A stretch of DNA of 64,000 bases. Origin: Lachnospiraceae bacterium. GTDB lineage: Bacteria; Bacillota; Clostridia; Lachnospirales; Lachnospiraceae. Position 1 is the first letter of the stretch, and every line of letters starts with the position of its first letter. Both the position numbers and the translations under genes were made by a program. The notes below the pieces were generated by a model that saw nothing but the letters and a program-made list of their open reading frames with translations, had not been told where the DNA came from and made no database searches. The DNA lies in assembly GCA_022483465.1 (NCBI GenBank), contig JAKVNF010000001.1, positions 1,054,001 to 1,118,000 on the forward strand. The letters run 5' to 3'. Below are positions 40,313-50,629 of the stretch, in pieces.

Positions 40313-41233
40313 GTGGCAAAAAAGATCATCAACCGGGTACTGGTCTCCATCCCGGTGCTCATCGGCGTCATCTTCATCATCTATGTGATGCTCAACATCA
40401 TCCCCGGCAACCCCATCGAGGTCATGATGGCGGAGCACGCCCGCCAGGACGTCATCGACCGAATCAGCGCCTACTACGGGCTGGACAAGCCCGTCTGGGA
40501 GCAGTTTTTGATCTACATGAAAAACCTGCTGCACGGGGACCTGGGGGTGTCCTACAAGCTGAACCGCTCGGTCAACAGTCTGATCGCGGACGCCTTCCCC
40601 TACACCTTAAAGCTCGCCATCGCGGCGGCGATCGTCTCCTGGCTCATCGGCATCCCTGCCGGGATCCTCTCCGCAATCCATGAGAACACCATCGTCGACC
40701 GGCTGTTCATGGGCTTCTCGCTCCTGGGCGTCTCGATGCCGGTGTTCTGGGCCGCCCTCATCTTTCAGTACATCTTCGCCTACCGGCTGGCATGGGTTCC
40801 GGTCTCCGGCGCGGACACCTGGCAGTCCTACATCCTGCCCGCCATCGTGCTGGGCTGGAGCAGCGCGGGCACCATCGCCCGGCTGACCAGGTCCAACCTG
40901 CTGGAGGTCCTCGAGGAGGACTACATCCGGACTGCCTGGGCCAAGGGCCTCTCCCAGGCCGGGGTGATCCTGCACCACGCCTTCAAGAATGCCCTGCTCC
41001 CCGTCATCACGATGATGGCAATCCAGGTGGCATCGCTCCTCTCCGGCGCGGTGATCACCGAGACCGTCTTCGCGATCCCCGGCATCGGGCGGCTGGCCGT
41101 CGATGCGATCACCAACCGCGACATGCCGCTTTTGCAGGGCACCGTCATCTTCACCACGATCCTGATCATCGCGGGCAACCTGATTGCCGACATCCTGTAC
41201 TCGGTGATCGACCCCCGGATCCGGGAGAAGTGA
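40313..41233 (+). CDS. dppB: peptide ABC transporter permease (DppB-like)
   Basis: 306 residues from a GTG start preceded by AAAGAGGT. Six membrane segments. The N-terminus IINRVLVSIPVLIGVIFIIYVMLNIIPGNP and the conserved EAA loop (RTAWAKGLSQAGVILHHAFKNALLPVITMM) are those of DppB/OppB. It forms the membrane channel with the next permease. The gene order SBP-B-C-D-F is the standard dipeptide operon. Confidence 0.93.
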   Translation: MAKKIINRVLVSIPVLIGVIFIIYVMLNIIPGNPIEVMMAEHARQDVIDRISAYYGLDKPVWEQFLIYMKNLLHGDLGVSYKLNRSVNSLIADAFPYTLKLAIAAAIVSWLIGIPAGILSAIHENTIVDRLFMGFSLLGVSMPVFWAALIFQYIFAYRLAWVPVSGADTWQSYILPAIVLGWSSAGTIARLTRSNLLEVLEEDYIRTAWAKGLSQAGVILHHAFKNALLPVITMMAIQVASLLSGAVITETVFAIPGIGRLAVDAITNRDMPLLQGTVIFTTILIIAGNLIADILYSVIDPRIREK

Positions 41234-41288
41234 GCCCCGCCGCCTGCAGACCAACGAAGTTTTCGATTCACACGATAGAGGTACCAAC

Positions 41289-42290
41289 TTGAGCGATTTG
41301 AAGCATTTCAGACCGGACACCGCCTTCGGCGGCAAGAATGAAAAGCGGGATCTGACCTCCTCCGCCAAAAAAGCACAGGACCCGGACGCCAAGCTCTCGG
41401 CAAAGGACAAAAAGCGCATCCAGCTCGCCGCGGACCTGGGCGAGGCCGAGACCGGCTGGGACAAGTTTAAGATTCTCTGCAGTGAGAACAAGCTGGCGGC
41501 CGCCTCTGCGGTCATCATCCTGGTGATCGCCCTGATGGCGATCTTCGCCCCGGTGGTGGCACCCTATGACCCCACCAAGCAGGACCTTCTGCACCGGCTC
41601 GAGGGCATGAGCGCAGCGCACATCTTCGGCACCGACCAGCTCGGGCGCGACGTCTTCTCACGGATGATCTACGGCGCCCGGGTCTCCCTTGTCATCGGCC
41701 TTCTGCCGACCTTCCTCTCCCTGGCTTTGGGCACGGTTCTTGGCCTCATCAGCGGGTATCTTGGCAAGGCGGCGGACTTTGTGATCATGCGGCTTGCGGA
41801 CATCACGATGGCCTTCCCGTCTCTGCTCCTTGCGATGGTCGTCATGTACACGCTGGGCGCCGGCATCGTCAACATCTTCCTGGCCCTGACCTTTGTCTCC
41901 TGGGCGGGCACTGCCCGGGTCATCCGCTCCCAGACCCTCTCCCTCCGGGAGATGGAGTACATCGAGGCGGCAAGGAGCATGGGCGTCTCCAAGTGGCGGA
42001 TCATGTTTCAGCACATCCTGCCGAACTGCCTTCCCAACCTGATCGTCCTGTTCACGCTGAACATCCCCGGCTCGATCCTCTCGGAGTCCTCCCTGAGCTT
42101 TCTGGGCATCGGTGCCCAGCCCCCGATGACCAGCTGGGGCCTCATGGTCTCCGACGGCAAGCAGTACCTGTTCACCGACCCGGTGGTGGCCATCGCCCCG
42201 GGTGTTGCGATCCTGATCCTGGCGCTCGCCTTCAACTTCCTGGGCGACGGCGTGCGGGATGTGCTGGATCCATACCTGAACAAGCAGTGA
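41289..42290 (+). CDS. dppC: peptide ABC transporter permease (DppC-like)
   Basis: 333 residues from a TTG start; the upstream site is GAGGTACCAAC. An extended cytosolic N-terminus of about 75 residues precedes six membrane segments. [29 protein letters not shown] and the EAA loop [28 protein letters not shown] identify DppC/OppC. It pairs with DppB. The ATPase gene follows after 10 bp. Confidence 0.93.
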
Positions 42291-42300
42291 GGAGGCAGCT

Positions 42301-43302
42301 ATGAGCGAAGCAAACACCCTGGAAATCCGCCATCTGCGGACCGTATTCCACACGAGAAAGGGAGATCTTGCCGCGGTCAACGACGTCTCCCTCACGGTGC
42401 CCAAGGGAAAGATCGTGGGCATTGTCGGCGAGTCCGGCTGCGGCAAGAGCATGACCGCGATGAGCGTCATGCAGCTTGTCAGAAAGCCCGGCGAGATCGA
42501 GTCGGGACAGATCCTGTTTCGGGGCGAGGACCTGCTGCAGAAGACCCCCGGCGAGATGCAGAAGATCCGGGGCGACCGCATCAGTATGATCTTCCAGGAG
42601 CCCATGACCAGCCTGAACCCGGTCTACACCGTGGGCCACCAGGTGGAGGAGGCCCTGCGGATCCATGAGCACCTGTCGAAGGAGGAACTCCACCGCCGGG
42701 CGGTGGAGATCTTCGAGGCCGTCGGCATCCCGGAGGCGGAAGAGCGGCTCAAGTCCTATCCCCACCAGCTCTCCGGCGGCCTGCGCCAGCGCGTCATGAT
42801 CGGCATGGCGATGATCTGCAAGCCGGATCTTCTGATCGCCGATGAGCCCACCACGGCCCTCGACGTCACGATCGAGGCCCAGATCCTCGCCCTGATGAAA
42901 AAGCTTAGGGACGAGAACGGCACCTCCATTCTCCTCATCACCCACAACATGGGCGTCGTCGCCAAGATGTGCGACTTCGTCTACGTCATGTATGCGGGCC
43001 GGGTGATGGAGCAGGCCGAGGTGTTCGAGCTGTTTCGAAATGTCCAGCACCCCTACACCGCAGGACTCCTCCAGTCCATCCCCCGGATCGACCACGTGGT
43101 GGACCGGCTCTACACGATCCCGGGCGTGGTGCCGAACCTCCTGCACCTGCCCGCAGGCTGCGGGTTCTGCACAAGATGCCGGTACGCACAGGACCGCTGC
43201 TACGAAGAGCTCCCGGAACTGCGCGAGATCGCGCCGGGCCACTTCATCCGCTGTTTTTCCACCAACCAGGAGCTTTCGGGAAAGGAGGAGAGCCATGCCT
43301 GA
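42301..43302 (+). CDS. dppD: peptide ABC transporter ATPase (DppD-like)
   Basis: 333 residues, GGAGGCAGCT upstream. Walker [11 protein letters not shown] (about 45), Q-loop [11 protein letters not shown], signature [12 protein letters not shown], Walker [13 protein letters not shown] and switch His in LLITHNMG. The C-terminal oligopeptide extension has the Cys motif [14 protein letters not shown], which can bind an iron-sulfur cluster in this family. It overlaps the next gene by 8 bp. Confidence 0.94.
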
Positions 43303-44272
43303 ATCCAGCAAAAACGTCCTGCTGCAGGCGTCACACCTCGTCAAGGAATTCCCGGTGGAGGGCGGCAAAAAGGGCTCCGCGGTGCACGCGGTATCAGATG
43401 TGAGCCTTACCCTCTTCGAGGGCGAGACCCTGGCCCTCGTCGGGGAGTCGGGCTGCGGCAAGTCGACCCTCGGGCGGCTTCTGATCCGCCTCCTGCCCCC
43501 GACCTCGGGCACGGTGACCTACGACGGGACGGACATCCTCGCCCTGAAGGAGCGGGACTTTGCCCCCTACCGCCGGCAGATGCAGATCATCTTTCAGGAC
43601 CCCTACGCCTCTCTGGACCCCCGGATGAACGTAACGCAGATCATCGAGGAGCCCCTGCGCGCCAACGGGGTGGGAAAGACGAAGGCGGAGCGCCAGGAAA
43701 AGGTCTTTGAACTCATGGACCTTGTCGGCATCCCCAGGGAGTACGCAAAGCGCTATCCCCACCAGTTCTCCGGCGGACAGCGCCAGCGGATCGGCATCGC
43801 TAGGGCGATCGCGCTGAACCCGAAGCTGGTCGTCTGCGACGAGCCGGTCTCCGCCCTCGACGTCTCGATCCAGGCCCAGGTCTTGAACCTTCTTCGGGAT
43901 CTGCAGCAGCAAAAGCACATGACCTACCTGTTCATCTCCCACGACCTCTCGGTGGTGCGGCACATCTCCGATCGGGTGGCGGTCATGTTTCTTGGCAAGA
44001 TCTGCGAGGTGGGTCCCACGAAGGACCTGTACGAGCATCCGCTCCACCCCTACACCAAGTTCCTGCTGGCCTCCGTGCCGAACCCGGATCCCACCAAGCG
44101 GGACGAGAACGAGGTGCTCCTTACGGGCGACATCCCAAGTCCCGTGAACCCGCCCTCTGGCTGCCGCTTCCGCACCCGCTGCCCCTTTGCGGATGCGAAA
44201 TGCGCCGAGGAGGAACCCGCCATGCAGGAAGTGGGGGAGCGCCGCTTTGCCTGCCACCACCCGCTGACGTGA
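43295..44272 (+). CDS. dppF: peptide ABC transporter ATPase (DppF-like)
   Basis: 325 residues from the ATG at 43295 (MPESSKNV), which follows AAAGGAGGAG; a longer frame starts within dppD without a site. Walker [29 protein letters not shown], signature [16 protein letters not shown], Walker [13 protein letters not shown] and His switch [12 protein letters not shown]. The C-terminal Cys box is [14 protein letters not shown]. Forms the ATPase pair with DppD. The operon ends at a terminator 40 bp further on. Confidence 0.94.
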
Positions 44273-44309
44273 GCGGTCCACAAAATAAAACCATCACAAG
44301 TACAAAAAC

Positions 44310-44350
44310 AGACCGGAAGCGGCAGGAATTCCTGCCGTCTCCGGTCTTTT
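44310..44350 (+). terminator. terminator of the peptide transporter operon
   Basis: AGACCGGA-AGC-GGCAGGAATTCCTGCC-GTC-TCCGGTCT forms a two-part stem followed by TTTTG. Nearly the same sequence ends the lacI-type gene at 48200. Confidence 0.88.
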
Positions 44351-44369: not shown

Positions 44370-45677
44370 TTACCCCGCAAAGGAGTGCAAAAGGTTTGGA
44401 ACCTGCACGCGGAGCGCATTGACGGTCATGAATACCGCAAAGACGTAGCAGATCGTCATCGAGATCTGCAGGACTCTCGGCGGCCGGATCCCGGAGAAGA
44501 GCTCTTTCTTCCACAGGATCAGCACCATGAACAGCCCGGCCACCGGAGTTGCGATGGAGGTCGCCACATTTGCCATGAAGATGAGCTGGGTCGGTGAGCC
44601 GCCGTAGAGGAAGCAGACGATGGTTGCGATGGCAAGGCAGACAAAGCAGAGGGTTTTGACCTGCTTGGAGTCCAGGGCCGTCTCCCGGTTTCGGCCCGCC
44701 TGCAGCAGGACGACACCTCTCTGGGTGTTGCCAAGGAGGGAGGAGAAGCCCGCGCCGATGATCGCGATGCCCATGATGACGGGGGCCGCATTCCCGAGGA
44801 AGGGGCGGAGGAGATCGCCGAGCTGGGCCGGCGCCTTGATCGCAATTCCCTGGGGATGCAGGACAATGGCCCCGACCAGCACGATCGCGCCGGAGATGAG
44901 GACCACCGTCACGATGTGGGCGATGGCATCCGCCCGCATCGTCCCGTTGAAGAGATCCTCCTTCTTCCACTTCTTCTCCACCCCGAGATAGGTCCCGTAA
45001 ATGCCCGCGGTCACGGCGGCATTGGTGCTGACATAGCCGAGGGCTGTGGTCAGGGACCCCTCCGGGAACTGCCAATTGACCATCCCCTTCCCGAACTCGC
45101 CCCAGGCGGGGCCACCGGTGGCGGCGAGGGTCGCGTAAAAGCAGACGATCATCGCGAAGATGCAGAGCATGATCATCTTTTCGACCTTCGAGTAGACCCC
45201 CTTGGCCATGTAGCAGAGGACCAGGATGCCCAGCATGATGGCGGCGCCGATCCGCCAGTCAAAGCCGAAGATCAGGTTCATGCCGGCGCCGGTTCCCGTC
45301 ACATTTCCGAGGGTGAAGAAGAAACAGGAGAGAAACAGCGCAATGCCGCAGAAGGAGGAGGCAACGCCCCCGTAGTAGTGCCGGATCGCATGCAGGATCG
45401 GGAGCCCCGTCATGCAGGTGACCCAGTAGGAGGACATGGTGAAGGTGATGCCCATCGCGATGATGGGAATGAGGAGCCACATCAGCTGATACCCGTAATT
45501 GGCCCCCATCATGGCGGAGGTGGTGATGTTGCCGGGACCGATGACAATGCCGGTCAGGATGATACCGGGCCCGATCTTCTTCAGGAGGGCGCCGAATGGG
45601 AGCCGCTTGACCGCCGCGGGATCAAATCCCATCCGCTCCTGCACGGATTTCGTCAGATCCAAATGTTCGTAGTTCAT
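44370..45677 (-). CDS. Nramp-fold transporter lacking the metal-binding motifs
   Basis: 435 residues, about 11 membrane segments, Nramp family. KKIGPGIILTGIVIGPGNITTSAMMGANYGYQLMWLLI corresponds to helix 1, but the usual DPGN reads GPGN, so the metal-ligand Asp is missing. The helix 6 region (TNAAVTAGIYGTYLGVEKKW) has no MPHN motif either. The protein therefore probably does not carry Mn2+/Fe2+ in the usual way. It lies 87 bp downstream of a DapA-like aldolase in the same LacI-controlled unit, which suggests uptake of the aldolase substrate or of a Mg-like ion; this is inference. A hairpin separates the two genes. Confidence 0.8.
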   Translation of the reverse strand: MNYEHLDLTKSVQERMGFDPAAVKRLPFGALLKKIGPGIILTGIVIGPGNITTSAMMGANYGYQLMWLLIPIIAMGITFTMSSYWVTCMTGLPILHAIRHYYGGVASSFCGIALFLSCFFFTLGNVTGTGAGMNLIFGFDWRIGAAIMLGILVLCYMAKGVYSKVEKMIMLCIFAMIVCFYATLAATGGPAWGEFGKGMVNWQFPEGSLTTALGYVSTNAAVTAGIYGTYLGVEKKWKKEDLFNGTMRADAIAHIVTVVLISGAIVLVGAIVLHPQGIAIKAPAQLGDLLRPFLGNAAPVIMGIAIIGAGFSSLLGNTQRGVVLLQAGRNRETALDSKQVKTLCFVCLAIATIVCFLYGGSPTQLIFMANVATSIATPVAGLFMVLILWKKELFSGIRPPRVLQISMTICYVFAVFMTVNALRVQVPNLLHSFAG

Positions 45678-45708
45678 AGTCTGTCCCCTGTATTCCCCTT
45701 AGATTGGC

Positions 45709-45741
45709 AAAAGAGAGCACAAGCCTGTGCCTATGCTCTCT
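45709..45741 (-). terminator. hairpin between the aldolase and Nramp genes
   Basis: AGAGAGCA and TGCTCTCT (45734-45741 with 45712-45719) close a 14-base loop and are followed on the minus strand by TTTG; probably a weak or regulated terminator. Confidence 0.6.
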
Positions 45742-45764
45742 CCCGCCCTGCTGAAAATGCCGGA

Positions 45765-46736
45765 TTACTGATACTGCGTCATGTCGACCTTCGGAAGGCC
45801 GGACTCCTTCAGGCCCTTGGCCACCCAGTCGATCTGGTCCTGATCGAGCGGAAGAACCGGTCTTCTCATCAGGGCAGAGGTGAAGATGCCGCGCTGCCTC
45901 AGGGCTTCCTTCAGCCGTGCATGGGCCTCACCGGAGGGCTGGCCGCCGCCGTAGATCGCCTGGCTGATCGGATAGATCCGATTGGAGGCATCCTGGGCCT
46001 CCTTCAGGGTGTGCTGATCCGGGTGGGAGAAGACATCCCAGGCGGAGGTGATCAGCTCCGGCACACAGCCGGCAAAGCCGATCAGCGCGCCGTCCATGCC
46101 CGGGAACCAGGAGACGCACAGGGTCTCGTCATGGCAGGTGATCAGGGCCAGATCCGGACAGGTCTTCCGCAGGTAGCGGACGTCATGCTCGTAGATCGGC
46201 GTCACACGGGTTCCCATCTTCACGCACTTCACGTGCGGGATCTCCTTGTACATCTTCTCCAGGGTCTCCACGGGATAGAAGGCCTTGGAGGTTGCCGGAT
46301 ACAGGTGAATGATGATGTCGATGTCCGCGCCGTCTGCCACATCCTTGACAAACTCAAAGGGGGCATTCGGATTCATGCCAAAGCGCAGCCACATGTGGGG
46401 CGGCATCAGGAGAATGCCGTCTGCGCCGGCCTCCTTCGCATCCTTCGCATCCTCGATGGCGCCTGCCGTGTTCTCGCAGTTGACGCCCGAGATGATGGTC
46501 ATGATGTCGCCGCACTCCTCGGCGCAGATCTCCACGACCCGCTTTCTCTCCTCCCGGGTCAGTCCGGTGATCTCTCCGGTGTGGCCGTTGCAGACCAGGC
46601 CCTTCATCCCCTTGTCGTAGAAGCTCTTGATCCAACGAAGATAGGCGCGAAACTCGGGCTCATTGATGGAGCCGTCCTCGTGCATCGGAACAGCAACTGC
46701 CGGGAAAATGGTCTTAAAGGTAACTTCTTTTGCCAT
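45765..46736 (-). CDS. dihydrodipicolinate synthase-family aldolase
   Basis: 323 residues from 46736 (MAKEVTFKTIFPAVAVPMH), preceded by CAAAGGAGATCATC. DapA/NanA-type TIM barrel: GLVCNGHTGEITGLTREERKRVVEI carries the GxxGE substrate motif, IIHLYPATSKAF the Tyr, and HVKCVKMGTRV the Schiff-base Lys. The C-terminal helix bundle with ALRQRGIFTSALMRRPVLPLDQDQID is longer than in biosynthetic DapA. The family cleaves or forms 2-keto acids (for example keto-deoxy sugar acids or hydroxyproline products); biosynthetic lysine function is unlikely in this regulated setting. It is first gene of a two-gene unit with the Nramp-fold transporter, under an identifiable promoter and operator. Confidence 0.87.
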   Translation of the reverse strand: MAKEVTFKTIFPAVAVPMHEDGSINEPEFRAYLRWIKSFYDKGMKGLVCNGHTGEITGLTREERKRVVEICAEECGDIMTIISGVNCENTAGAIEDAKDAKEAGADGILLMPPHMWLRFGMNPNAPFEFVKDVADGADIDIIIHLYPATSKAFYPVETLEKMYKEIPHVKCVKMGTRVTPIYEHDVRYLRKTCPDLALITCHDETLCVSWFPGMDGALIGFAGCVPELITSAWDVFSHPDQHTLKEAQDASNRIYPISQAIYGGGQPSGEAHARLKEALRQRGIFTSALMRRPVLPLDQDQIDWVAKGLKESGLPKVDMTQYQ

Positions 46737-46863
46737 GATGATCTCCTTTGTACTCTCTTGGATCGGTGATCCGGCGGGGCGGTGCGCCCGCATTCCGGAA
46801 GCGTTTTGTCGTGTGTTGTGTGTCATGCAACGGGCGGGCTCTGCAGTGCCCCTTCCCTCATCT

Positions 46864-46875
46864 GCAAACGTTTGC
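46864..46875. promoter_or_regulatory. LacI-type operator O1
   Basis: Perfect palindrome GCAAACGTTTGC with the central CG typical of LacI/GalR operators. It lies about +10 to +21 relative to the predicted aldolase transcription start, so a bound repressor would block elongation. Confidence 0.8.
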
Positions 46876-46891
46876 TTTGTTTCATGACTGC

Positions 46892-46920
46892 GTTATACCA
46901 GTCCCCGGATTTCCCGTCAA
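46892..46920 (-). promoter_or_regulatory. promoter of the aldolase-Nramp unit
   Basis: Minus strand TTGACG (46920-46915), 17-bp spacer, TATAAC (46897-46892). It is a near-consensus sigma-70-type promoter upstream of operator O1. Confidence 0.82.
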
Positions 46921-47077
46921 CGAATTCGGCCCTCTCTGCAAATTGTTGCAGGTCGTCTGCATGTTTTTGCATAGAGTGTCCGATTTTTACAGCTTTTTCC
47001 ATCTAATTTTGTGCATGATTTCCCGAATTTTTCGCTGTTACCCGGGGCGGCGTCGCATTTTTCGGCGCCGGGCAGAT

Positions 47078-47114
47078 GCAAACGATTGTATTAAACTGCC
47101 GGAAACGCTACAAT
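47078..47114 (+). promoter_or_regulatory. promoter and second operator of the lacI-type gene
   Basis: TTGTAT (47086-47091), 17-bp spacer, TACAAT (47109-47114). The operator-like GCAAACGATTGT (47078-47089) overlaps the -35 box, which suggests negative autoregulation and possible looping to O1 about 215 bp away. Confidence 0.75.
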
Positions 47115-47161
47115 GAAGGGAGAAAACAGAGGCGTTTCGGAAACCGGACGAAGGAGGAGCT

Positions 47162-48160
47162 ATGGCAACACTCAAAGATGTGGCAAAACTGGCCCACGTG
47201 GATGTCAGCACGGTGTCCCGCGCGCTCAACAACAGCGCCTATGTCCACCCGGACACCAAGGCGCGCATCATGAAGGCCGTCAAGGAGCTGAGCTACGAGC
47301 CGAACATCCTGGCCCGGGGTCTTCGGCAGGGAAAGCGGGAGACCCTCGGCGTGATCCTCCCGAAGCTCTCCTATTCGATCTTTGCGGAGGTGGCCTCCGG
47401 GATCGAATCCCAGGCAAGAAAGCACGGCTACGTAACGCTGGTGAGCAACACGGGAAATGACAAGGACACCGAAAAGCTGGTGCTGAACCGCCTGCGGAGC
47501 GGCTTCATCGATGCGCTGATCATCGCGGGGACCGGCGAGAACACCCGGCTGATCCGCTCCATCTCTGAGGAGGGGATGCCGGTGGTGCAGGTGATCCGGG
47601 ACAGTGATCCCCTGATCAGCAGTGTGGTTGTCGACTACGACGACGTGGGGTACCGGAGCGTCCAGCTCCTCGCGAAGAAGGGGTGCCGGCACATCGGTCT
47701 GATCAACGGCTCCATGAAGATCCGGCCCTATGCGGAGCGCTACCGCGGATACCGGCGGGGGATCCGGGAATTCGGCCTGCCGGAGATCACCGCAGAGCGC
47801 GAATCCCTCCAGCGCGGCATCCAGTACGGATACGACTGCGCCCTCCAGCTCATCGACGAGAACTGCGAGCTCGACGGGATCCTGGCCGTCACGGACACCC
47901 AGGCCATCGGGGCCATGCGGGCGCTGCACGACAACGACCTGTCTGTGCCGGGACAGGTGCGTCTTTTGAGCATGACCGGACACCAGATCGGCGGTATGCT
48001 GACGCCCTCTCTCACCTCCATGGAGCTGCCCGCCTTTGAGATCGGGGAGCGGGCCACGGACATGGCGCTGCAGATGATCGAGGCGGGGAGTGACAAAAAG
48101 CCCGCGGTGCAGCGCCTCTCCTTCCACGCCGAGCTGGTGGAGCGGGAATCCACGCAGTGA
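47162..48160 (+). CDS. LacI-family transcriptional repressor
   Basis: 332 residues, start preceded by GAAGGAGGAGCT. Helix-turn-helix at the N-terminus (ATLKDVAKLAHVDVSTVSRALNNS) followed by the hinge helix NILARGLRQGKRETLGVILPKLS, then a periplasmic-binding-protein-like sensor core. DTQAIGAMRALHDNDLSVPGQVRLLSMTG and SLTSMELPAFEIGERATDMALQMI are typical of the second lobe. The effector is probably a sugar acid or its metabolite. It is divergent from the aldolase-transporter unit; both promoters carry matching operators. Ends at a strong terminator. Confidence 0.92.
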   Translation: MATLKDVAKLAHVDVSTVSRALNNSAYVHPDTKARIMKAVKELSYEPNILARGLRQGKRETLGVILPKLSYSIFAEVASGIESQARKHGYVTLVSNTGNDKDTEKLVLNRLRSGFIDALIIAGTGENTRLIRSISEEGMPVVQVIRDSDPLISSVVVDYDDVGYRSVQLLAKKGCRHIGLINGSMKIRPYAERYRGYRRGIREFGLPEITAERESLQRGIQYGYDCALQLIDENCELDGILAVTDTQAIGAMRALHDNDLSVPGQVRLLSMTGHQIGGMLTPSLTSMELPAFEIGERATDMALQMIEAGSDKKPAVQRLSFHAELVERESTQ

Positions 48161-48261: not shown

Positions 48262-48590
48262 TTACTGCTGGCTGCCGTAGCAGAGGGCGAGTTTTTCGAA
48301 GAAGTCGTCCATGGTGAGGCGCCAGTCGATGCCGTCACAGACCCGGATGGCCCTGCTGTCGGGTTGGGGCCGTAGGTCATGTCGTCCAGGATGCGGGGTG
48401 CCCGCTCCTCGTGATAGCGCTTCTCCAAAAGCACCGACACCGTCGGCTGGTCCCCGATGGACCAGATCTCCCCGTGGGGGAACTCGGTCCGGATCGGAAG
48501 GCTGCCGTAGAAATCGCTGACGGCAAACATCTTGTCGGTTTCTCGATTTGCCAGCATATAGATCGGAGCGTTTTTCAGGCTCCGTGCCGG
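48262..48590 (-). pseudogene. fragment of an unknown gene with a one-base deletion
   Basis: A readable frame begins near 48590 (SLKNAPIYMLANRETDKMF) without a good ribosome site and runs as AVSDFYGSLPIRTEFPHGEIW. After YGPNP near 48361 the frame shifts; restoring one G gives PDSRAIRVCDGIDWRLTMDD and the natural end YGSQQ at 48262. Its front meets the tail of the truncated rhamnosidase gene, so both genes seem to have lost DNA at the same junction. Family not recognised. Confidence 0.5.
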
Positions 48591-50629
48591 GCGAACTCGT
48601 ACAGGGGCAGGGCCGACCAGGCGTGGCAGTCCGAGCGGGGATCGTAGGGCGTCTCCGGGAAGGTGGTGCAGTGGAGGTCCAAAAACTTCTGCCAGGGCGC
48701 CCAGAGCGCGTCAGTCCTGTCATAGAGTCCCACCTGCTCCAGGGCGCGGAACAGATAGAACTTCTGCGAGAAGGAGCACTGGACCAGGGTATCATCGGCA
48801 AGGACGCGCTCCATGAGACCGCGCGCCTTCTCCCCGCTTACAAGGCCCGTCAGCACCGCAAAGATCTGGGTGTGCTGGGAGAACTCCTCTGTGGCAGGGC
48901 CCTCCTGGTAAAGACCGCGTGATGCATCAAAACAGGTTCTCTCCACGGCGGCAAGGATCTGCCCACATGTCTTGGTCAGCTCCTCAGCGAGATCCGCCCT
49001 GCCGTAGCGGGGCAGGATCCTTGCAAAGCTCTGGGCTGCATAGACAAACTGGAGGTTCTGCAGGGCAGAAGCCCCGTCCCGGACTGCGGTGGGCACGCCG
49101 AAGTGCCCGTCCCACTCCCGGGTCCAGTCGGCAAAGTCCCAGTATCCCCGGGGCGCAAGGAGCCCGTCCGGGGTCTTTTTGGCAAGAAAGCTCTCCAGAA
49201 TCCGCTCCCCCGCGGGGATGTAGGGGCGCATCGCCTCGATGTCCCCGGTCTCCAGGATGTAGTCCTCCAGCATCAGGACAAAGTAGAGCGAGAACCCGGG
49301 GATCACCTGGGGCACCCGGGAGGGATTCCTCGACTGGATCAAGCCGTCCGGGCGCAGAGACGCGGCAAGCAGATCGATCGCATGCCGCGGCAGCCGCACG
49401 TCGTCCGAGCAGGCATAGGTGAACAGGATCTCGAGCCTCGTGTCGCAGGCGTACTGGAGCTGCTCGTAGTAGGGGCAGTCCTCGAAGGTGTCGTGGGAGC
49501 AGAGCTGGAGCGTCCGAAGGGCCGTATCGTAGAGCTTCTCCTTTGCAGGGTCCGAAAAGGCGGGGCGCTTTGTGTTTTCGATCGGATAGGCGGTCTCCAC
49601 GAAGCTTTGCGGCAGGATGGCAAGGGGCGCATCTTTGGTCTCCACCGCGACCTCCACAAAGCGGAAGGTGCGGAACCGGAAGGGCTCGTAGATCTCCTCC
49701 CCGCCCCCGCAGACATAGCTGTCGTGGACGCCGAGGATCACGCCGGTGGTATCGTCCCGCACGCCCTTATAGCGGGTTCCGTCCGGGCGGACCTTGAAGT
49801 AACTCTCCGCATAGGTGAGGGTGACCTCTGCACCCGCGCCGCCCGAAAAGCCGATGCGGAAGAAGGCCGTGGTCAGGCCCCCGGCGTCGAGCACAAAGCG
49901 CTCCTTCGTGTGGGCGGGAATTTCCCGCTTCTCCCAACCGGGGAAGGTCTTCTCCCGCCGGTATAAAAGCGGAATCGGCCGGTCCTGGAAGACCTTTCCC
50001 TGCAGATCCCCATAGGGGTCCCAGGGGTAGGGCTGCACGATGGCAGCGGGCAGGGTCTTTGCAAGGTCCCAGGCAGCGCCGGCAAAGGGATTTTCCAAAG
50101 CTTTCTTCCCATCCACGCACTCGGTGGCGCCGACAAGGAAGATCTCATCCGCGTTGAACGAGGCAGCCTGGTCCACAAAGATGTGCCAGCTCGCGGGATC
50201 GGCAAGGTCGGTTGTTCCGATCCTCCCCACCATCATGATCGCCGGGCCGTCATCGTCGCCGTAGCAGTAATTCGGCCCCTCCTGGGTCCGGTCCTCCGGG
50301 TGCTCCGGATAGGAGAAGACTTGAAACAGGAGTTTGTTGGTCCCCGGGACAAGGTAGGGCGCAAGGTCCAGCGCATCCACGTAGGAGATCTCCTTCTCCC
50401 CCCGGCAGGGCCCGAAGAGAACCTCCGTCCCGTTCACGAAAAACTTGTACTGACTCCGTCCGGAGAGGCGCACCGGGCACCTTTCCGGCACCTCGTCCAG
50501 GTCGGCCAGAAGGCCGAACCACAACACGCAGATGCGGTTTTTCGGGTCAAGGCCTGCTGCCTTCTGGTCCTTAGCCGAAAGGCCCAGGAAATGCTCCTTC
50601 TCCACAGGAAATGGGAATGCTTCTGCCAT
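48575..50629 (-). CDS. GH78-type alpha-L-rhamnosidase, C-terminus truncated
   Basis: 684 residues, start preceded by GGGAGGAAAAG. N-terminal beta domains (about 1-330) include a carbohydrate-binding region (YKFFVNGTEVLFGPCRG, VDALDLAPYLVPGTNKLLFQVF). The (alpha/alpha)6 catalytic domain follows with DTFEDCPYYEQLQYACDTRLEILFTYACSDD and DGLLAPRGYWDFADWTREWDGHFG. No signal peptide, so it acts inside the cell on imported rhamnosides. The chain stops just after DPRSDCHAWSALPLYEFARHGA; family members normally continue for a further beta-sandwich of roughly 70 or more residues. It was probably the last gene of the glycan operon, now separated from it by the IS110 element. Confidence 0.83.
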   Translation of the reverse strand: MAEAFPFPVEKEHFLGLSAKDQKAAGLDPKNRICVLWFGLLADLDEVPERCPVRLSGRSQYKFFVNGTEVLFGPCRGEKEISYVDALDLAPYLVPGTNKLLFQVFSYPEHPEDRTQEGPNYCYGDDDGPAIMMVGRIGTTDLADPASWHIFVDQAASFNADEIFLVGATECVDGKKALENPFAGAAWDLAKTLPAAIVQPYPWDPYGDLQGKVFQDRPIPLLYRREKTFPGWEKREIPAHTKERFVLDAGGLTTAFFRIGFSGGAGAEVTLTYAESYFKVRPDGTRYKGVRDDTTGVILGVHDSYVCGGGEEIYEPFRFRTFRFVEVAVETKDAPLAILPQSFVETAYPIENTKRPAFSDPAKEKLYDTALRTLQLCSHDTFEDCPYYEQLQYACDTRLEILFTYACSDDVRLPRHAIDLLAASLRPDGLIQSRNPSRVPQVIPGFSLYFVLMLEDYILETGDIEAMRPYIPAGERILESFLAKKTPDGLLAPRGYWDFADWTREWDGHFGVPTAVRDGASALQNLQFVYAAQSFARILPRYGRADLAEELTKTCGQILAAVERTCFDASRGLYQEGPATEEFSQHTQIFAVLTGLVSGEKARGLMERVLADDTLVQCSFSQKFYLFRALEQVGLYDRTDALWAPWQKFLDLHCTTFPETPYDPRSDCHAWSALPLYEFARHGA

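Follow-up and report, generated by a model that had tools for sequence, protein, structure and literature searches.

Here we describe a three-gene unit in a 64,000-nucleotide stretch of a Lachnospiraceae bacterium genome (GCA_022483465.1, contig JAKVNF010000001.1, positions 1,054,001 to 1,118,000; hereafter the window), in which a DapA-like aldolase and an Nramp-fold transporter are encoded divergently from a LacI-family regulator (window 44370-47161; Table 1). Comparison with its relatives makes it likely that the aldolase and transporter form a two-gene unit for uptake and cleavage of a hydroxy-2-oxo acid, with the Nramp-fold protein as predicted importer. The strongest evidence for organic-acid import is that the carrier is exchanged between related loci while the aldolase and the LacI regulator stay constant. 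An earlier note on this DNA had described the same arrangement, which the coordinates and Pfam matches bear out, and had proposed that the transporter moves something other than Mn or Fe, perhaps the substrate of the aldolase or a different cation. The proposal is supported. Of its two options we favor the substrate over a different cation, in view of the solute-carrier swaps, the metal-independent chemistry of the aldolase family and the lack of acidic ligand residues in the transporter.

Carriers that accompany the aldolase

Relatives of the transporter were collected by a single genome scan with peptide patterns from the window protein, which reach near relatives only. The 63 resulting loci (52-80% identity) belong, by record titles, mostly to Lachnospiraceae and other Clostridia, and also to Streptococcus, Veillonella, Acidaminococcus, Enterococcus, Trichococcus, Shouchella, Marinococcus and a Spirochaetaceae metagenome-assembled genome. 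To these were added 99 regions with PF01566 matches (from Bacilli, the window's phylum and the genomes of our own loci) and eight named plasmid or E. coli K-12 stretches. In a FastTree phylogeny built on an alignment of 181 distinct proteins, 62 form a PF01566 clade of their own with support 1.0, here called the window clade. The remaining groups are canonical proteins with DPGN/MPH (36 proteins, 1.0), NRMT-like (12, 1.0), GPGT/VVPYN (13, 0.987), GPGF/GGTVGGY (51, 1.0) and GAGD (3, 1.0), together with three sister-like proteins that are not a clade and one unassigned. Branching order among these clades is weak, with the window clade and its sister joined at 0.417.

Exchange of the carrier was sought with the aldolase rather than the transporter as query, across 348 genomes of the phylum, a set of 291 genomes and 398 Bacilli genomes. 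Near-relative aldolases occur in 4, 1 and 5 of these, respectively, giving 10 loci, where three matches whose Nramp gene was already known (own genome, G066 and G061) are left out. Each of the 10 holds a carrier in the same cluster, in some with lacI intervening: TAXI-TRAP in four (L206, L207, L208 and L209; in L208 the TRAP genes start ~1.3 kb from the aldolase), MFS in four (L205, L221, L222 and L223) and a window-clade Nramp protein in two (L224 and L225). Plasmid loci extend the range, with LacI, aldolase (64-65%) and a sodium:solute symporter (SSS) in two L. plantarum records, TAXI-TRAP in Paenisporosarcina, and MFS in Priestia (two of six records read). More remote aldolases (32-40%), from Novosphingobium, Klebsiella and Acinetobacter, adjoin SSS or MFS carriers as well. 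The Shouchella unit, with an Nramp protein, and the P. filamentosa Priestia unit, with MFS, share aldolases that are 92% identical and LacI proteins that are 79% identical. Across a tree of 66 aldolase sequences, transporter type switches at least 10 times by a Fitch count, which depends on the chosen root. Inspection of the reverse direction reveals MFS and SSS relatives in none of 52 window-clade loci and TAXI-TRAP in two (L051 and L066).

The exchanged carriers were also compared with family models. Of these, two TAXI binding proteins and a fused permease score above their cut-offs, the SSS proteins fall below theirs, and the best model for the three MFS proteins tested is aromatic acid/H+ symport, again below its cut-off. 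Substrates of TAXI systems reported in passages of PMC11574862 are alpha-ketoglutarate and glutamate.

Gene pairing alone gives no direction and could also suit a carrier that imports a precursor or exports the aldolase product, be it by efflux of an aldehyde-derived acid or by substrate/product exchange. We consider this unlikely: TRAP systems are importers, TAXI-TRAP with its binding proteins fills the same slot, and LacI control fits induction by a substrate.

Linkage was then counted from the transporter side. Counts cover loci of at least 7 kb (shorter ones, including the 4-kb loci of own-genus relatives, are left out), with open reading frames (ORFs) called mechanically and clusters formed by blastp single linkage. 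An aldolase lies within 5 kb in 48 of the 52 window-clade loci, in each case upstream and on the strand of the transporter, at gaps of 3-699 bp as measured between mechanical ORFs. Near the other clades it is found in 0/31 canonical, 0/11 NRMT-like, 0/5 GPGT, 0/3 sister, 0/3 GAGD, 0/1 unassigned and 1/46 GPGF loci; that is to say, in one locus of the 100 from the rest of the Nramp family (Fisher p ~1e-33 for the comparison, ignoring shared ancestry). LacI linkage follows suit, at 46/52 versus 0/100, including 0/31 canonical. The earlier note held that a lack of linkage in the transporter's clade would speak against its proposal, and linkage proves near-total. Four loci depart from it. Two begin less than 400 bases upstream of the transporter at contig ends (L019 and L040, the latter keeping 48 residues of an aldolase at its edge). 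L051 has its aldolase ~7 kb upstream in a tandem unit, beside TAXI-TRAP and another LacI gene, and in L066 TAXI-TRAP stands ahead of the Nramp relative, followed by the contig end.

The loci are mostly from Firmicutes, such that their counts are not independent, and the genes might be neighbors through shared ancestry of a gene block with no joint function. This is very improbable given that the transporter has been exchanged at least 10 times while the aldolase and LacI stay, that the unit also occurs in Veillonella, Acidaminococcus, Bacilli and the Spirochaetaceae genome, and that order and strand of aldolase and transporter are constant in all 48 linked loci.

Neighborhood tells a fair amount about substrate in this family, because the genes near other clades agree with the functions reported or expected for them. 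GPGF-clade loci carry PxpA in 43 of 46, PxpC in 41 and PxpB in 40; PxpA is near 0 of 52 window-clade loci. An MntR-like cluster, whose Paracoccus member is annotated mntR, lies near 6 of 31 canonical loci. The NRMT-like loci share a cluster in 5 of 11 (representative L192:8183-9463), whose MgtE_N, CBS and PRC domains are fitting for an Mg2+ role of NRMT-like genes.

The metal site of the transporter and the chemistry of the aldolase

Both the profile score and a LeuT-type fold near solved Nramp structures place the window transporter in PF01566. An AlphaFold2 model (mean pLDDT 86.8) breaks transmembrane helix 1 (TM1) at GPGN and TM6 at STNA, and its closest PDB entry is EleNRMT (7qia, TMt 0.89), followed by DraNramp entries (TMt 0.75-0.88). 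The TM6 stretch STNAAVTAGIYG aligns to GATIMPHVIYLH of E. coli MntH and lacks MPH. Alignment of the window clade with MntH and DraNramp indicates that TM1 reads GPG followed by N, A, S or V in 61 of 62 proteins, the remaining one being truncated, which places Gly (or, in that protein, a gap) at the metal-site Asp. TM6 reads A/S-V/I/L-T/N in 62 of 62, with Ala or Ser at the metal-site Met and Thr or Asn at the metal-site His, and the TM3 Glu (DraNramp E134) is Asn in all 62. None of the aligned ligand positions holds an acidic residue. The alignment confirms GPGN for DPGN and the missing MPHN, as first read from the window alone, and the standard motifs DPGN/MPH, whose presence in relatives would have told against the note's proposal, appear in 0 of 62.

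A search of the window's own genome found no second Nramp-family gene. Own-genus relatives carry a GPGT-type Nramp protein, and in one of them a CT_C_D (PxpB-like) gene comes next (L006:1486-3580).

The aldolase aligns its Lys173 with the Schiff-base Lys of the DHDPS family, and residues G51, H52, G54, E55, H114, W116, R118, Y146, K173, R177 and T200-E204 are invariant in 21 of 21 sequences from all transporter types. The proton relay of E. coli DHDPS, which we take to be T44, Y107, Y133 and R138, is not preserved: the corresponding places hold H52, M115, H144 and T149, with the tyrosines replaced (H114/M115 and H144). None of the curated NCBIfam cut-offs is reached by the protein, which scores 82.5 bits against 206.15 for dapA (TIGR00674), 74.8 against 382 for nanA and 83.1 against 281 for PRK04147, the last two being N-acetylneuraminate lyase models. 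Judged by sequence, it is a class I aldolase/lyase distinct from DHDPS. Class I aldolases, which work through a Schiff-base Lys, need no metal ion by family chemistry. Since the Lys is kept, the aldolase should need none either, and the most straightforward grounds for expecting a metal importer in the operon fall away.

Several roles were considered for the aldolase and set aside. Supply of a metal cofactor to it was rejected as it is a class I enzyme with its Lys kept. A biosynthetic DapA was rejected on the lost tyrosines and on two further DHDPS-family (PF00701) genes of the same genome, with Pfam scores of 295 and 196, both above that of the unit's aldolase. For sialic acid as substrate, the nanA score lies far below its cut-off, although no search was made for nan genes. 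A substrate from plant 3-deoxy-D-manno-octulosonate (KDO) or rhamnogalacturonan was suggested by an alpha-L-rhamnosidase-like gene that converges with lacI (window 48575-50629). This was dropped, as the rhamnosidase has relatives in 0 of 52 clade loci and the unit is carried by Veillonella and Acidaminococcus, which are poor sugar users.

In the scheme we propose, a hydroxy-2-oxo acid would enter through the Nramp-fold carrier. Lys173 of the aldolase would form a Schiff base with it and split it into pyruvate and an aldehyde or second keto acid, as family membership and the conserved Lys suggest. APC amino-acid carriers hold a carboxylate by backbone amides, and the neutral, glycine-containing TM1/TM6 break could do the same. 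The LacI-family protein would keep aldolase, transporter and lacI itself repressed, and binding of the acid or a product would release them. The most likely substrate would be a 2-keto-3-deoxy or 4-hydroxy-2-oxo carboxylic acid. It would enter the cell in that form, given that further gene families recur in no more than about 9 of 52 neighborhoods; a dicarboxylate such as 4-hydroxy-2-oxoglutarate is our guess. The transporter, while of the Nramp family by structure, would then probably work as an organic-anion member of the APC superfamily.

A number of observations weigh against organic-acid import. The best structural match of the transporter is an Mg2+ transporter, and the adjacency of a carrier is also what one would expect of a product exporter. 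In two loci (L051:183-10450 and L066:324-6145) TAXI-TRAP adjoins the Nramp relative together with LacI genes, and the two carriers may differ in job. Passages of PMC10448178 report that overexpression of B. subtilis YcsG/MntG raised cell Mn and that a mutant in ycsG, mntH and mntA together could be recovered only when a further copy of ycsG was present. A. baumannii MumT is reported, in part of PMC5050338, as an Mn importer that supports Mn uptake. YcsG, MumT and the C. glutamicum carrier PxpT bear on the window clade only by analogy.

The reported Mn effects of such relatives, the Nramp fold and EleNRMT as best match in both structure and sequence would all agree with a cation transporter (Mn2+, Mg2+ or monovalent) that supplies or balances an ion needed by the aldolase pathway. 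We nonetheless regard a cation as rather unlikely. The aligned ligand places lack Asp, Met, His and the TM3 Glu, the aldolase keeps its metal-independent Schiff-base Lys, and in other loci the same aldolase unit is served by solute carriers of the MFS, TRAP or SSS type. With one MntR as query, no relative turned up in the 52 window-clade loci, in contrast to the MntR-like cluster of canonical loci.

Control region and recurring neighbors

The divergent genes aldolase and lacI are separated by 425 bp, and 87 bp lie between aldolase and transporter by coordinates. The regulator carries both the HTH and the periplasmic-binding-protein-like domain of the LacI family. The operators GCAAACGTTTGC and GCAAACGATTGT that the earlier note had proposed were both found where it placed them (Table 1). 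As for its near-consensus promoters in both directions, that of the aldolase stood, while the lacI side proved weak. An equally good aldolase-side promoter arose in 32 of 500 shuffles, and a stricter promoter scan listed neither. Operator matches alone are not rare in 64 kb: three matches at two places (at most one mismatch) compare with 1.8 expected, and 26 of 100 shuffles gave three or more. The operator-like sites gain weight because of their position and their conservation across loci. The position downstream of the aldolase -10 is a usual place for a repressor, and the best GCAAACGTTTGC match near the aldolase start has at most two mismatches in 35 of 45 loci versus 7 of 1350 shuffles. 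Three of the 48 loci were dropped from this survey for too little upstream DNA, operator distances vary as ORF starts are mechanical, and all operator and promoter controls are mononucleotide shuffles.

A stable hairpin marks the boundary between the unit and a convergent oligopeptide-type ABC operon (window 40313-44272), whose permease has relatives in 2 of 52 clade loci. The hairpin was not listed by a consensus terminator scan.

Table 1. Features of the window and glyoxalase/VOC-like genes of related loci
Feature	Position	Strand	Details
Nramp-related transporter (PF01566)	45677-44370	-	435 aa; Pfam Nramp 168.2 bits against cut-off 29.8; GPGN at residues 47-50; STNAAVTAG in TM6
DapA-like class I aldolase (PF00701)	46736-45765	-	323 aa; Pfam DHDPS 107 bits; Shine-Dalgarno AAAGGAG; Schiff-base Lys173
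LacI-family regulator, divergent	47162-48160	+	PF00356 HTH 65.6 bits; PF13377 periplasmic-binding-protein-like domain 95.4 bits
Operator-like perfect palindrome GCAAACGTTTGC	46864-46875		Putative LacI-family operator, 16 bases downstream of aldolase -10
Second operator-like site GCAAACGATTGT	47078-47089	+	Overlaps putative lacI -35
Putative aldolase-transporter promoter	46892-46920	-	TTGACG-17-TATAAC; 10/12 consensus matches
Weak putative lacI promoter	47086-47114	+	TTGTAT-17-TACAAT; 8/12 consensus matches
Hairpin with T-rich flanks, putative bidirectional terminator	44305-44350		~-31 kcal/mol; z -5.75 and -5.80
Glyoxalase/VOC-like genes	L041:9405-9725; L051:5362-5691; L064:378-710; L028:5172-5489; L213:10710-11102		

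Once ORFs overlapping aldolase, lacI or transporter are set aside, no other recurring cluster was found in more than 7 of the 52 window-clade loci. The seven-member cluster is a 110-aa protein present in 9 of 52 loci by tblastn, mostly right after lacI or the transporter. Five of these proteins were scanned against Pfam Glyoxalase/VOC, giving one clear match (39.6 bits), one at the cut-off, one just below it and two without a match. A VOC-family gene is also annotated right after MFS in both Priestia records, and a VOC-like gene thus links the Nramp and MFS versions of the unit. One hint from this is that the aldolase's second product is a reactive aldehyde or has to be isomerized, and the VOC-like protein may handle that second product. 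Single loci show an ATP-dependent phosphoenolpyruvate carboxykinase after MFS (L205:10610-12382) and an oxaloacetate-decarboxylase-type alpha chain after TRAP (L209:3406-4815), a hint of oxaloacetate near the pathway from too few cases to use.

Relation to known carriers and aldolase operons

The nearest functional precedent is PxpT, a distantly related Nramp-family protein of C. glutamicum, for which passages of PMC13274462 report no growth on 5-oxoproline after in-frame deletion and rescue by pxpT alone; these also state 50% identity to YcsG and leave metal transport possible. PxpT and YcsG (MntG) resemble the window unit in that an Nramp-family carrier, an organic-acid catabolic enzyme and a local regulator share an operon. 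They differ in that the partner is a 5-oxoprolinase, not an aldolase, and in the clade motifs GPGF/GPAF and GGTVGGYITF. Judging from operon content, YcsG and PxpT are probably members of the 51-protein GPGF clade found beside PxpABC; the window clade has neither the GPGF and GGTVGGY motifs nor PxpA among its neighbors. The GPGF/PxpABC pairing bears on the dispute over whether such a protein is MntG or a 5-oxoproline carrier. A PDB sequence search with a GPGF protein returned no match. Within this clade (L098-L146 and others), a D-glutamate cyclase-like gene occurs in 21 of 46 loci.

EleNRMT shares with the window transporter the absence of the canonical motif, in addition to sequence and fold. 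Its relatives, in contrast to the window clade, have D-A-x-x in TM1, mostly x-P-W in TM6 and a TM3 Glu or Asp in 11 of 12. The NRMT-like and window clades are separate, each with support 1.0, and EleNRMT itself is outside the tree. Canonical Nramp/MntH proteins of E. coli and D. radiodurans likewise have a LeuT-type fold broken in TM1 and TM6, whereas their DPGN, MPH and TM3 Glu are all absent from the window transporter.

On the enzyme side, the aldolase is akin to DHDPS and N-acetylneuraminate lyase aldolases (YagE and others) in its family match, Schiff-base Lys and GxTGE loop, and departs from them in having His/Met for the proton-relay Tyr. The sugar-acid operons xynABC and yagEF combine a dehydratase, a DapA-like aldolase and MFS. 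These operons likewise place aldolase and carrier under a local repressor (PMC12445098), while the window unit lacks the dehydratase and has a carrier of another fold.

No paper on the pairing of an Nramp protein with a DapA-like aldolase was found among the literature matches listed; the Nramp passage of PMC12445098 concerns mouse genotypes. A 2026 preprint names Nramp-related groups including 'NRMT-like' and 'G-motif 3', and describes all but the NRMT-like and MntG groups as entirely uncharacterized (PMC12873925). In Cellier 2023 the PF01566 outgroups are handled as 'orphan' and NRMT types (PMC10606218). The fold family is known and the organic-acid role has one strong precedent, while a clade that is tied to an aldolase and shows such swaps of transporter seems not to have been described before.

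Two further relatives on haloarchaeal plasmids, both annotated as metal transporters, have neighborhoods of their own. On Haloferax mediterranei pHME505 a GPGT-type protein is immediately followed by hydantoinase/oxoprolinase A and B (L198:5971-10838). On a Haladaptatus plasmid a sister-like GPGS protein has a sulfatase on one side and a heparinase-like protein with Gfo/Idh genes on the other (L197:4114-12118), suggesting a polysaccharide-derived acid.

A broader proposal, which we offer tentatively and at somewhat less than even odds, is that all 'G-motif' Nramp-related proteins are organic-anion carriers: for 5-oxoproline in the GPGF clade, hydroxy-2-oxo acids in the window clade and perhaps hydantoin-type lactams or uronic-acid products elsewhere. 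On this view Nramp proteins would have acquired metal transport later, starting from an APC carrier of organic solutes, and what is reported on Mn for YcsG/MntG and MumT would reflect a side activity or an indirect effect. The window clade is a clean test case, since its enzyme partner is defined, operator-like sites are present and transporters have been swapped in nature, and simple genetics could settle its substrate. If organic-acid import holds, many 'divalent metal transporter' labels in gut Firmicutes would be mistaken, and an organic-solute outgroup would become available for tracing how metal selectivity evolved in a medically important family.

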